Positions 21,346 to 25,568 of a stretch of DNA of 64,000 bases are shown here, one piece after another. The position numbers and the translations under genes were made by a program. The DNA lies in the NCBI GenBank assembly GCA_900473795.1, contig UCMT01000032.1, forward strand, positions 1-64,000. The letters run 5' to 3'. Position 1 is the first letter of the stretch, and each line of letters starts with the position of its first letter. The notes beneath the pieces were generated by a model, which saw only the letters and a list, made by a program, of their open reading frames with translations, was not told the DNA's origin and searched no databases. The DNA is from Hyphomicrobiales bacterium (GTDB taxonomy: Bacteria; Pseudomonadota; Alphaproteobacteria; Rhizobiales; Rhizobiaceae).

Positions 21346-22626
21346 ATGACCCCATCATTCCTTCGCGGCGCCGCGCTGGCGCTCGCAACCGCAACGTCGA
21401 TGCTTGCGCTGCAGCCGGCGCAGGCTGCGACCGACGCTGCCGCCGTCGTCAAGCACTATGCCGAGGTGGCGCATGCCAAATATTCCGATGCGCTCTCGAC
21501 CGCCGAGGCGCTCGACAAGGCGGTCGACGCGCTGATCGCGACGCCGAGCGAGGCGACGCTGAAGGCGGCGCGCGAAGCCTGGCTTGCTGCCCGCAATCCC
21601 TATCAGGAGACCGAAGTCTATCGTTTCGGCAACCCGATTGTCGATGAGTGGGAAGGCAAGGTCAACGCCTGGCCGCTGGACGAGGGCCTCATCGACTATG
21701 TCGATCCGAGCTACGGCACCGAAAGCGACGAGAACGCGCTGTTCACCGCCAACGTCATTGCCAACAAGACGATCAAGATCGACGGCAAGGACGTGGATGC
21801 GACCAACATCACGCCGGAATTCCTCTCGGGCACGCTGCAGGAAGCAGGCGGCGTCGAGGCGAATGTCGCCACCGGCTACCATGCGATCGAATTCCTGCTT
21901 TGGGGCCAGGACCTGAACGGCACCGGCAAGGGTGCGGGCAACCGGCCCTACACCGACTATGACACGAAGGCCTGCACCAACGGCAATTGCGACCGCCGCG
22001 CCGCTTACCTGAAGGCTGCCAGCGACCTGCTCGTGTCCGACCTCAAGGACATGGTCGCCAACTGGGCGCCGGATGGCGCTGCCACCAAGAATGTCGAGGG
22101 TGACGCCAAGGCCGGCGTTGCCGCGATTCTCACCGGCATGGGCTCGCTCTCCTACGGCGAACTGGCGGGCGAGCGGATGAAGCTCGGCCTCCTGCTGCAC
22201 GATCCGGAAGAAGAGCATGACTGCTTCTCCGACAACACCTACAACTCGCATCTGCACGATGCGATCGGCATCCAGGCCGCCTATCTCGGCGAGTACACCA
22301 AGGTCGATGGCACGAAGCTGACCGGCCCGTCGCTCTCCGAACTCGTTGCCGCCAAGGACCCGGCGCTTGACAAGGAAATGAAGGAAAAGCTGGCAGCGAC
22401 GCTCACCGCGATGGAAGCGATGGCCAAGCGTGGCCAGACGGTCGAGGCCTATGACCAGATGATCGCCGAAGGCAACACCGAGGGCAATGCCATCGTCCAG
22501 GCCGCCATCGACGGTCTCGTCGCGCAGGCAAAGACGGTCGAGCGCGTCATTGCGTCGCTGGACCTCGGCACGATCGAGCTTGAAGGTTCCGACAGCCTGG
22601 ATAATCCTAACGCTGTCTTCCAATAA
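21346..22626 (+). CDS. Imelysin family periplasmic protein (iron-regulated protein A type)
   Basis: A 426-residue protein with a signal peptide (FLRGAALALATATSMLALQP, cut near AQAA) followed by imelysin repeats. The hallmark GxHxxE motif is G177-Y-H179-A-I-E182 (GYHAIEFLLWG). Imelysins are periplasmic and linked to iron acquisition; they are not proven peptidases. AGGAG sits 5 bases ahead of the ATG. It is followed by a di-heme oxidoreductase, a second imelysin and, after a corA gene, a DUF1513 protein. The first three and DUF1513 are a recurrent set in proteobacteria. Confidence 0.88.
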   Translation: MTPSFLRGAALALATATSMLALQPAQAATDAAAVVKHYAEVAHAKYSDALSTAEALDKAVDALIATPSEATLKAAREAWLAARNPYQETEVYRFGNPIVDEWEGKVNAWPLDEGLIDYVDPSYGTESDENALFTANVIANKTIKIDGKDVDATNITPEFLSGTLQEAGGVEANVATGYHAIEFLLWGQDLNGTGKGAGNRPYTDYDTKACTNGNCDRRAAYLKAASDLLVSDLKDMVANWAPDGAATKNVEGDAKAGVAAILTGMGSLSYGELAGERMKLGLLLHDPEEEHDCFSDNTYNSHLHDAIGIQAAYLGEYTKVDGTKLTGPSLSELVAAKDPALDKEMKEKLAATLTAMEAMAKRGQTVEAYDQMIAEGNTEGNAIVQAAIDGLVAQAKTVERVIASLDLGTIELEGSDSLDNPNAVFQ

Positions 22627-22635
22627 GCAAGGGCA

Positions 22636-22669
22636 GGCCGCCGCTGCTGTCGCGCGGCCCGGTTTTTTT
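22636..22669 (+). terminator. Terminator or attenuator between imelysin and di-heme gene
   Basis: ggccgc (22636-22641) pairs with gcggcc (22654-22659), followed by seven Ts (22663-22669). The next gene starts two bases after the T run with no clear ribosome binding site, so this hairpin may lower expression of the downstream genes relative to the imelysin. Confidence 0.55.
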
Positions 22670-22671
22670 GA

Positions 22672-24438
22672 ATGCCTGTTTGGCTCGTCCAACGTGTGAT
22701 TTTGCCGTCTGCCGCTGCACTTTTGCTAGCGGCGGGCGGCTTTTCCGTTTTTGGTGAGAGTGCTGCGTTTGAGACGGGGCACCCCCCTCTGTCACTTCGT
22801 GACATCTCCCCCACAAGGGGGGAGATTGGCTCCGAGCCAGCCGCAATTTCTGCTGGAAAGGTAACCGGAATTTCCAGGTGGGAGAGTGGGCGAGAGGTTG
22901 CCACATCGATCTCCCCCCTTGTGGGGGAGATGCCCGGCAGGGCAGGGGGGGGTGAAGCCCCGGCAACGAAAAGCGCTGCTATAGACCATTTCTCCGCCCA
23001 AGCGCGCAGCGATCTCTCCGAGGCCGATCGTCGCCGTGTCCAGGCCGTCACCCGCCCCGCCACCGATTTCGCCAAGGCCGAAAAATTCGAGGCCATGTCG
23101 GGTGGTGCGGGTACGTCCATCGCCTCGGTCAATCAGGACAGCTTTTCCCAGTTTTCCGCCAATATCACCTTTGCCGAGGAAGGGACGTTCAAGCTCGGCA
23201 ATGCGCTGTTTCGAAAACTCTGGGTCTCTTCGCCCTCATCGACGCAGGCCTCGGATGGCCTCGGGCCGCTCTACAATGCTCGCGCCTGCCAGACCTGTCA
23301 TCTGAAGGACGGACGGGGCCATCCGCCGGAAGGGTCGACGGACACGACCTCGATGTTCCTGCGTCTTGCCCGCGGGCCGAAGACCGACGCCGAGCGGGCG
23401 GCGATTGCGGCGCACGCGGTGTTGAATTTTCCGGATTCCGTCTATGGCGCGCAGTTGCAGGACAGTGCGGTGCCCGGTCTTCCCGCCGAAGGCCAGATGA
23501 AGGTCACCTATACCGAAGCTCCGGTCACGCTTGCGGGTGGCGAAAGGGTTTCCCTGCGCAAGCCGCGCTATTCGATCGAGAACGTCGGGTACGGTGCGCT
23601 CGATGAAACGACCACGCTTTCGCCGCGCGTGACCCAGGCAATGAGCGGGCTTGGACTGGTCGAGGCGATCCACCCCGCCGACATCCTCATCAATGCGGAT
23701 CCGGACGACAAGAACGGCGACGGCATCAGCGGCAAACCGGCGCTGGTGCGTGATCCCGTCTCCGGCAAGCTCACCCTCGGCCGCTTCGGCTGGAAGGCGC
23801 AGAGCGCCACCGTGCGTCAACAGAGCGCGGATGCCCTTGCGGGGGACATTGGCATTTCGTCGCCGGACGCCAGACGCAGCCATGGAGATTGCACCGCAGC
23901 ACAGGCCGCCTGTCTCGCCATGGCCAACGGCGTGCAGCCGAGGCTGGGCGATACCGAAGCGCCGGACCCGATCCTCGACCTCATCACCTTCTACGCGGAA
24001 AACCTGGCGGTTCCGGCGCGGCGCAAGGCGAGTTTTGCGGAAACGCTGGCGGGCAAGAAAGTCTTCTACGAAACCGGCTGCATTTCCTGTCATGTGCCGA
24101 AATTCGTCACCCGCCGCGACGCTGCCAACAAGGCGCATGCCTTCCAGTTGATCTGGCCCTATTCCGATTTTCTGCTGCACGACATGGGCGAGGGGCTTGC
24201 CGACGGCCAGCAAGTGGGCGAAGCATCGGGCAGCGAATGGCGCACGCCGCCGCTCTGGGGTATCGGATTGACCAAGACGGTGAGCGGCCACACGTTCTTG
24301 CTTCATGACGGCCGTGCCCGCAATCTGACCGAAGCCATCCTCTGGCACGGCGGCGAGGCGGCAAAAGCCCGCGACCGGTTTGCGGCGCTGGAAAAAGCCG
24401 ATAGACAAGCCCTGATGACATTCCTGGAGTCCCTTTGA
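22672..24438 (+). CDS. Di-heme oxidoreductase (DHOR/thiol oxidoreductase-like), with in-frame repeat insertion
   Basis: A 588-residue periplasmic cytochrome-c-type protein. The signal segment is about residues 8-30 (ILPSAAALLLAAGGFSVFG). Two heme c sites are visible: C206-Q-T-C209-H210 and C470-I-S-C473-H474. The pattern matches the DHOR family found beside imelysins, probably reducing or oxidising a metal or small molecule in iron uptake. About 60 residues (roughly 36-98, including DISPTRGEIG and ISPLVGEMPGRAGG) are the translation of a palindromic repeat inserted in frame between the signal peptide and the mature domain. There is no Shine-Dalgarno sequence at the ATG. The stop overlaps the next ATG (TGATG). 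Confidence 0.85.
   Translation: MPVWLVQRVILPSAAALLLAAGGFSVFGESAAFETGHPPLSLRDISPTRGEIGSEPAAISAGKVTGISRWESGREVATSISPLVGEMPGRAGGGEAPATKSAAIDHFSAQARSDLSEADRRRVQAVTRPATDFAKAEKFEAMSGGAGTSIASVNQDSFSQFSANITFAEEGTFKLGNALFRKLWVSSPSSTQASDGLGPLYNARACQTCHLKDGRGHPPEGSTDTTSMFLRLARGPKTDAERAAIAAHAVLNFPDSVYGAQLQDSAVPGLPAEGQMKVTYTEAPVTLAGGERVSLRKPRYSIENVGYGALDETTTLSPRVTQAMSGLGLVEAIHPADILINADPDDKNGDGISGKPALVRDPVSGKLTLGRFGWKAQSATVRQQSADALAGDIGISSPDARRSHGDCTAAQAACLAMANGVQPRLGDTEAPDPILDLITFYAENLAVPARRKASFAETLAGKKVFYETGCISCHVPKFVTRRDAANKAHAFQLIWPYSDFLLHDMGEGLADGQQVGEASGSEWRTPPLWGIGLTKTVSGHTFLLHDGRARNLTEAILWHGGEAAKARDRFAALEKADRQALMTFLESL
22803..22932. repeat. Rhizobial palindromic element inside a coding region (copy B)
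   Basis: The bases at 22803-22826 are the exact reverse complement of 22909-22932 (24 bp), and imperfect C-rich/G-rich outer arms extend it to about 22780-22960. The arm sequence (tctcccccacaagggg) resembles copy A. It is read through in frame by the di-heme oxidoreductase gene and adds about 60 codons. Confidence 0.85.
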
Positions 24439-25568
24439 TGCGCCACCGGCTTCCCCTGCTTCTCGGCCTCAGCCTTGCCCTCCTGTCGCTGCCCGTCATG
24501 GCCGAGGATGTGGATGAGGCCGCGCCGCCCCGCGCCGGGCTCAAGCTGGAGGCGGTGCCGGGCGTCATGCAGAAGGCTGTCGACGATTTCATCCGCCCCG
24601 GCTACCGTGACCTGATGGAGGGCACGGAATCGCTGGCCGAAGCGGCCCATGTGCTGTGCGACAAGCCGTCCGAGGAAACGCTCGGCGACGTGCAGATGAC
24701 CTTTGACGAGGTCGTCCAGCAATGGTCGACGATCGAGATCGTCCGCGTCGGTCCGGTCATCGAAGGCAACCGTTTCGAGCGCTTCCTGTTTTTCCCGGAT
24801 CGCAAGAGCACCGGCCTGAAGCAGGTCCAGCGCATTCTGGCGACGAGTGACGAGACGGCAACCAAGGCGGAAACGCTGAAGGGCAAGAGCGTTGCCGCGC
24901 AGGGTCTCGGCGCGCTGGAATATGTGCTTTACGGAAACGGCGCGGAGGTCCTGCCGTCGGAGAAGAACGGTTTCCGCTGCCGCTATGGCGCGGCGATCGC
25001 CGACAACCTGAAGTCCATAGCCGCCGAGCTTCATGCCGAATGGGAAAAACCGGATGGCATCCAGTCCGCCTGGAAGGCGCCCGGCCCGGACAATCCGCTC
25101 TATCGCGACGGCAAGGAAGCGGCGACCGAACTGCTCGGCATCCTCGTCCACGGCGTCGAAAGCATCCGTGATCAGCGCTTGCGGCCGTTCTACGCCGGCA
25201 TCGTCAAGGGCGAGCCGGACAAAGGACATCCGAAGCTGGCGATCTACTGGCGCTCCGGCAACACCATGCCGGCGCTCTCGGCGAATTTCATGGCGCTGCA
25301 GACGCTGTTCAACACGGCCGACATGCAGGCGCTGCTGCCCGACGACAGACGCTCCATGGTGCGCGCCATCAACTATGTGCTGCAGGCCATCGTCGACGAT
25401 GCCGACCAGATCGATCTGCCGATCGACGAGGCGATCGCAGACGAGGAGCAGCGCGGCAGGCTGAACCGCATCCTGCAGAATACCAATGACGTTCTGCAGC
25501 GCCTCAATCTCGATTTCGGCGGCGCCATCGGGCTGGGCGCTGGCTTCTCCTTCGCGGATGGCGACTGA
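24438..25568 (+). CDS. Second imelysin family periplasmic protein
   Basis: A 376-residue imelysin-like protein with a signal peptide (LPLLLGLSLALLSLPVMAED). The region equivalent to GxHxxE reads GLGALEYVLYG, so the conserved histidine is missing while the glutamate is kept. This agrees with the known division into canonical and divergent imelysins in such operons. Translation is coupled to the upstream gene through TGATG, with GGAG 10 bases upstream. Confidence 0.85.
   Translation: MRHRLPLLLGLSLALLSLPVMAEDVDEAAPPRAGLKLEAVPGVMQKAVDDFIRPGYRDLMEGTESLAEAAHVLCDKPSEETLGDVQMTFDEVVQQWSTIEIVRVGPVIEGNRFERFLFFPDRKSTGLKQVQRILATSDETATKAETLKGKSVAAQGLGALEYVLYGNGAEVLPSEKNGFRCRYGAAIADNLKSIAAELHAEWEKPDGIQSAWKAPGPDNPLYRDGKEAATELLGILVHGVESIRDQRLRPFYAGIVKGEPDKGHPKLAIYWRSGNTMPALSANFMALQTLFNTADMQALLPDDRRSMVRAINYVLQAIVDDADQIDLPIDEAIADEEQRGRLNRILQNTNDVLQRLNLDFGGAIGLGAGFSFADGD

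Follow-up and report, generated by a model that had tools for sequence, protein, structure and literature searches.

The analysed stretch, hereafter the window, comprises 64,000 nucleotides of a Hyphomicrobiales bacterium genome (GCA_900473795.1, contig UCMT01000032.1, positions 1 to 64,000 of the forward strand). It encodes a di-haem oxidoreductase (DHOR) between two imelysin genes, and a CorA-type gene comes next after this imelysin-DHOR-imelysin cluster. A palindromic element lies inside the DHOR reading frame; its ends were set by orthologue comparison. The features of the locus are given below.

21349..22626, + strand: imelysin (Peptidase_M75), upstream neighbour; from Pfam, start assumed
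22672..24438, + strand: di-haem oxidoreductase (DHOR, PF06537) gene, 588 aa, carrying the putatively translated element
22672..22764, + strand: presumed signal peptide, DHOR residues 1-31, upstream of the element; read from sequence
22780..22956, + strand: palindromic element, about 59 residues in frame, HPPLSLRDISPTRGEI...ISPLVGEMPGRAGGG; ends approximate by a few bases
22790..22804, + strand: small palindrome TGTCACTTCGTGACA on the outer side of the left arm
22803..22826, + strand: left arm of a perfect 24-bp inverted repeat, itself a near-palindrome
22827..22908, + strand: spacer between the arms, 82 nt, drifting at the protein level
22909..22932, + strand: right arm of the inverted repeat; its last codon is an in-frame ATG (22930-22932, residue 87) with a purine-rich stretch before it
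24438..25568, + strand: imelysin (Peptidase_M75), downstream neighbour; from Pfam, start assumed

The 588-residue product matches PF06537 over residues 142-588 (E 8e-93; 312 bits against a gathering cut-off of 22) and has two CXXCH sites, C206/C209/H210 and C470/C473/H474, that are invariant in a 33-row alignment; score and sites together place it among the DHORs. A search of its sequence against the PDB gave no match at E 0.01. Proteins with CXXCH sites need export to receive haem c. The conserved domain begins at about residue 112, and the element lies between it and the presumed signal peptide, as the sequence-only reading of this DNA had proposed. Immediately 5′ of the DHOR start, a GC-rich stem followed by seven T (22643-22668) resembles a terminator; such sites are not enriched in the region (three, against a mean of 3.5 in shuffles).

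The same reading had described a perfect 24-bp inverted repeat, and the two arms are indeed exact reverse complements over 24 bp, each of them near-palindromic. They double as direct repeats (78% alike) with an offset of 105 nt, which is divisible by three. Two instances of the palindrome pattern are present in the 64-kb window (mean 0.00 in 100 shuffles), which also contains 26 inverted 16-mer pairs within 150 nt, against 0 in each of 20 Markov-simulated sequences of the same length. As RNA, the element is predicted to fold with -117.3 kcal/mol (z -7.5), a stability reached by 0 of 200 shuffles. Nothing in the window matched Rfam at gathering thresholds.

A DHOR gene is present in all 26 genomes of the genus set. 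The copy in G015 is broken and was excluded, leaving 25 usable loci; it is split by a frame change or TGA (G015:C1:2323092-2324673) in a genome that is 78% complete, where sequencing error or decay is possible. Over the last 1200 coding bases, 11 of the 25 loci are identical to named records, including Rhizobium giardinii, R. herbae, Pararhizobium arenae and Pararhizobium sp. YC-54, and we therefore refer to the group as Pararhizobium. The two-arm element is found in the same frame in 11 of the 26 genomes (shortened in L011, and with a decayed left arm in L009). Among the other linkers, L013 retains one arm only, L014 a remnant, and L022 a copy broken by masked bases; L008, L018, L020, L023 and L025 hold rearranged or other palindromes. 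Six genomes carry no element (L015, L016, L017, L019, L021 and L024), and in four of these the protein has 529-530 residues instead of 588; relative to the 529-residue proteins of L015, L016 and L017 the gain is 59 residues. Near relatives differ by the segment, as in the sister pairs L009/L019 and L006/L017. The orthologue alignment that had been suggested as a check thus bears out the claim of a palindrome inserted in frame and adding about 60 residues.

The DHOR linker of L008 combines the left half of a window-type element with a second palindrome family, and a similar composite is present in L134. In L087, L102 and L109, other palindromic elements precede the hydrophobic core of the DHOR signal peptide, where they may be translated or the start may have shifted; these three were excluded from the count of linker insertions.

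Beyond the genus, we took the best 80 of 566 confirmed stretches and removed 11 duplicates of genus loci, giving 94 rows in all. Seven Sinorhizobium/Ensifer rows (L066, L078, L080, L083, L086, L094 and L106) carry the element one frame over, with peptides such as PLCPAGHLPHKGGD, compared with PLSLRDISPTRGEI in the frame of the window genus; L082 and L088, of the same clade, are remnant-like. Element-free relatives of these carriers are both basal (L062, L071, L077) and interspersed (L076, L105). Of the 94 rows, 64 belong to no element group; these include the rows of Shinella, Mycoplana, Mesorhizobium and most Rhizobium. A quick tree requires 12 switches between presence and absence of an insert, or 18 when all states are distinguished, and its starred branches force just one origin per frame group. 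Because the frames differ and element-free relatives are basal to both groups, the two genera appear to have acquired the element separately. Other palindromes seem to have come in independently, and some copies to have been lost; we offer this as a reading rather than a proof, and the order of gains and losses is likewise reconstructed. Some of the short genus forms are probably losses, as the remnant in L014, the single arm in L013 and the junction in L019 suggest. Since the arms are also direct repeats 105 nt apart, L013 illustrates how a copy may shrink in frame. The sequence-only reading had not anticipated that the DHOR site holds several element families in several frames, or that other proteins do so too.

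Reading frame and divergence both bear on whether the element is translated and what becomes of the peptide. In the 11 two-arm copies, stops occur in frame 0 in 0/11, in frame 1 in 7/11 and in frame 2 in 11/11, a count that is partly circular because the rows were picked as ORFs joined to the conserved core. Arm-to-arm lengths across copies vary by multiples of three only. In genus orthologues that have the element and in those that lack it, the presumed signal peptide can be recognised upstream. Over all pairs of the 11 sequences, dN/dS is 0.10 for the mature domain, 0.60 for the signal peptide (0.37 in close pairs) and 0.74 for the spacer. In an AF2 model, residues 22-100 have block-mean pLDDT values of 25-36 and no secondary structure, which is poor proof of disorder in the insert because the whole model is weak (mean pLDDT 57.2). 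We infer that the element is translated in DHOR. Because peptides differ with frame and the spacer drifts, the peptide looks tolerated rather than selected.

The element is dispersed, as first proposed. In its own genome there are 34 perfect palindromes, against 0 with a reversed control pattern, and manual grouping of the pattern matches gives about 29 loci, with two 3-mismatch matches (contigs C20 and C80) left out. Among the overlapping ORFs that were scanned, we count four of the 29 loci as lying in frame within conserved proteins (DHOR, FtsY, CobN and UvrB). On plasmids, it is found at at least 1052 places in 185 of 72,556 records (Rhizobium 75, Sinorhizobium 70, Shinella 10, plus others). 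Most plasmid copies seem intergenic, because 46 of the 60 best listed places fall under no listed gene; 13 more are in unannotated records and 1 is under ftsY, the gene table being incomplete. An S. meliloti pSymB record has one perfect palindrome of the pattern. Other palindromes at the DHOR site are dispersed as well: the L018 insert occurs at at least 535 places in 132 plasmid records, the L025 insert at at least 1767 in 337, and the L109 element, which sits before the signal-peptide core, at at least 1734 in 202; these three and the window element each have inverted repeats in their sequence. The rhizobial element RIME1 is associated with pckA; of four pckA neighbourhoods, three have no arm-like match and one (L257) has a single match with 4 substitutions allowed. 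Contig C33 of the own genome has a window-type copy that is split by a different palindrome (L134:3000-3420); the right arm of this copy, GAGGGGGAGATG, seems to provide the start codon of a lytic transglycosylase (SLT_2), with the signal peptide directly after it.

It had also been suggested that the element be sought inside other proteins. The DHOR protein search found the translated element within other long ORFs among the matches listed, and Pfam together with sequence reading shows it in frame before the SRP54_N domain of FtsY, at two sites in CobN, and in UvrB after the UVR motif, where it would be translated as in DHOR. CobN was matched in 32 of 41 family genomes at E 1e-50, and was aligned in 34 rows: 29 from the family search and five genus rows (L135, L149, L150, L151 and L159) that were chosen for their element matches and are not a fair sample. 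At site 1, 22 of the 34 rows have 11-26 residues, and long palindrome-bearing inserts are present in all five genus rows as well as 6 of the 29 others (L167, L168, L170, L179, L180 and L188). At site 2, 16 rows have 10-18 residues and eight distant rows have none; four genus rows carry palindrome-bearing inserts, as do 5 of the 29 others (L170, L179, L180, L184 and L185), while L135 has a shorter, 35-residue form. Insert frames vary between genera, and site 2 of L151 holds another palindrome family. The solved CobN chain 9uk9_A aligns to residues 1-187, 264-802 and 878-1381 of the L149 protein without the inserts, having about ten and two residues at their positions. The CobN inserts contain exact inverted repeats of 9 to 29 nt, but element-free stretches (e.g. 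L245) also show them up to 12 nt, so short inverted repeats prove little and our calls rest on recognisable translated arms. Just beyond the cobN ORF on its start side, L149:5567-5671 and L159:2957-3064 each contain an extra pair of the same arms, making three copies per locus.

UvrB was matched in 25 of the 26 genus genomes; 23 rows were read and the tail was parsed in 21, of which 12 have an ISP[LP]xGEM segment. Other rows end in different palindrome-like segments, and L245 has a short tail without one. In G017 (C1:4141399-4144390; genome 87% complete), UvrB is split over three matches, possibly through an assembly error. Among 31 FtsY rows the element is clear in L126, L165 and L199, the first two having been selected for it, and degenerate in L197; the publicly annotated FtsY WP_210633012.1 (Rhizobium sp. 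NLR16a) contains an in-frame copy. Of 20 element-bearing ORFs submitted to Pfam, 11 had no family (L128, L130, L137, L142, L147, L140, L152, L153, L161, L162 and L164) and were not counted, several of them looking antisense or spurious. We also left out L155 (Fe-S/cysteine-rich domains) and L157 (polyprenyl synthetase), where the element is upstream of the domain and the start may be downstream. Also among these ORFs, L134 (SLT_2) has the element upstream of its signal peptide and L141 is a terminase.

Within DHOR, the arms are far more alike than the sequence around them. Over ten orthologous copies, the spacer has a p-distance of 0.442, the two arms have 0.061 and 0.036, and the outer parts 0.139 and 0.093; for third positions of the last 400 DHOR codons the value is 0.369. 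Synonymous rates show the same contrast (arms 0.14 and 0.07, mature domain 0.80). It also persists within a single spacer lineage comprising five rows, at 0.306 for the spacer, 0.042 for each arm and 0.361 for third positions. One arm behaves in the opposite way in the comparison of L009 with L010, where 4/24 positions of the left arm have changed. The spacer of L003 is 0.45 from those of its sisters L001 and L002, as far as from other rows, and resembles L005 more; between L001 and L002 the spacer differs by 0.06 and gene third positions by 0.21. Because the spacer lineages in L001-L005 do not follow the gene tree, copies were probably replaced or converted; such events inflate the spacer distance computed over all rows and could by themselves keep the arms alike.

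Both arms have changed together at one position, A-U in three of the ten sequences and U-A in seven, and this switch separates L001 from the otherwise similar L002. Support for covariation within the gene is mixed: it amounts to 2 pairs and 4 cells, its score being reached by 1/500 shuffles and its pair count by 105/500, and pairing within each arm as a local hairpin is just as good (97.8% of cells against 97.1%). Of 68 arm pairs taken from many loci, both sides could be classed in 44, and the loop base matches in 40 of those (38/40 for classes A or T, Fisher 6e-8), although the copies share ancestry and a split into two subfamilies would have the same effect. The likeness of the arms may thus reflect maintenance at the DNA or RNA level or copy replacement, a process that is not universal, since some CobN copies have decayed arms.

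Very probably, a mobile-looking palindrome entered the DHOR linker in frame and is now translated, drifting and tolerated, at one of a few shared permissive sites, its arms kept by a process acting on DNA or RNA. A non-autonomous, putatively mobile rhizobial palindromic element would have inserted in frame into the flexible linker that follows the DHOR signal peptide of this periplasmic enzyme, probably in an ancestor of most of the genus. It would now be read as a drifting, probably disordered linker, with selection preserving the reading frame and the exported enzyme rather than the peptide. The permissive sites would be the DHOR linker, the two CobN loops, the N-terminal region of FtsY and the C-terminal tail of UvrB. 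Several palindrome families would have entered them in different frames and been partly lost by in-frame deletion, and the arms would stay matched through arm-to-arm correction, conversion or replacement by other copies, or hairpin selection.

The sequence-only reading had named a true start downstream of the repeat as the outcome that would undo it, and the in-frame ATG ending the right arm (22930-22932), with its purine-rich approach, could serve a shorter form in which the element is a 5′ untranslated control element. The same kind of arm seems to give the L134 gene its start, and many N-terminal REPs may be untranslated according to the accessible text of PMC3733652. Such a start would remove the signal peptide of a two-CXXCH protein that must be exported; that peptide, as read from sequence, lies upstream whether or not the element is present, and all 11 two-arm copies have an open frame, an argument that is partly circular. 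We regard a downstream start as very unlikely. Somewhat less improbable, though still unlikely, is that an mRNA hairpin regulating the imelysin-DHOR-imelysin cluster is what keeps the element, the peptide being a by-product. The very stable predicted fold (-117.3 kcal/mol), arms far less diverged than gene third positions and the one position changed in matched fashion would all suit this, but 6/26 genus genomes do without any element and others have unrelated ones. Matched arms are also seen at other loci, and are therefore a property of the element and not of the DHOR gene.

Many members of one clade retain the segment, as might be expected had the peptide been recruited for a function in the protein; different frames, however, give unrelated peptides in Sinorhizobium and the window genus, the spacer has a dN/dS of 0.74, and sister genomes lack the segment, so that recruitment seems to us extremely improbable. 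The segment might instead be ancestral in the family, the short orthologues being deletions. The L014 remnant and the L013 single arm fit such a history, as would the L019 junction if it is a deletion between G-runs. With 64/94 rows in no element group and the element a dispersed repeat, we give ancestry very little credence. An extension of the preferred reading, in which a translated palindrome enters and is tolerated, is that at least three unrelated palindrome families share landing pads and that the palindromes evolve as palindromes within coding sequence, arm changes being copied or purged in a way that overrides codon-level drift. As a whole this is a tentative proposal that we think rather less probable than its negation: the shared landing pads are well supported, and arm copying is not separated from whole-copy replacement.

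The comparison with Rickettsia palindromic elements (RPEs), made when the repeat was first noticed, holds as an analogy of behaviour. According to the available text of PMC2229807 and PMC3733652, the RPEs described by Ogata, Claverie and colleagues are palindromes of about 105-150 bp, intergenic as well as in frame within conserved genes, and one tested protein (gmk) was reported to be active. The likeness is that of a dispersed palindrome in frame in conserved genes whose orthologues can lack it. The lineage is different, however; in the present case several unrelated families have used the same sites, in different frames, and arm divergence is lower than that of host-gene third positions. 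Translated palindromic elements as a kind occur at many loci and lie in frame where orthologues are element-free, and both are seen here. The Neisseria 107-bp Correia element and enterobacterial ERIC/RU-1 are also, as described in the accessible part of PMC2229807, small palindromes with reading frames fused to genes, and by description the window element is like them in its in-frame fusion.

A 2002 paper called protein-coding palindromes unique to Rickettsia in its title; translated palindromes were later found as REPs in other bacteria (PMC3733652, accessible text). The same text by Di Nocera and colleagues (2013) reports REPs inside ORFs of many bacteria, often in DNA-repair genes including R. 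conorii uvrB, and different REPs at about one site in recB of two Xanthomonas species; it does not mention the window element. GTAG, CGTC and their complements are absent from 22780-22958, so the element lacks the tag of the GTAG/CGTC REP super-families. RIME elements (Osteras et al. 1995, as summarised in citing papers) are dispersed rhizobial repeats, intergenic and of unknown function. The window element is likewise dispersed in rhizobia but, unlike RIME, has a copy within a gene, and because it is intragenic we do not file it as RIME1, an element known here by description. In the open-access library searched we found neither the sequence strings of the window element nor reports that these rhizobial elements are translated. 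As far as that library shows, three things are new: their probable translation, the recurrent use of a few protein sites by several families in several frames, and arms that diverge little within coding sequence.

Elements that the accessible rhizobial papers treat as intergenic would here be read as protein, repeatedly and at the same few sites, in large-genome soil bacteria. CobN, UvrB, FtsY and DHOR sequences of Rhizobiaceae contain repeat-derived segments, which can mislead alignments. One site with several elements, several frames and element-free sisters amounts to a set of natural replicates, and these let one ask whether such protein segments are ever more than tolerated. The alike arms offer a handle on how such elements persist; if palindromes do evolve as palindromes here, an element-level process would override codon-level drift inside translated genes.
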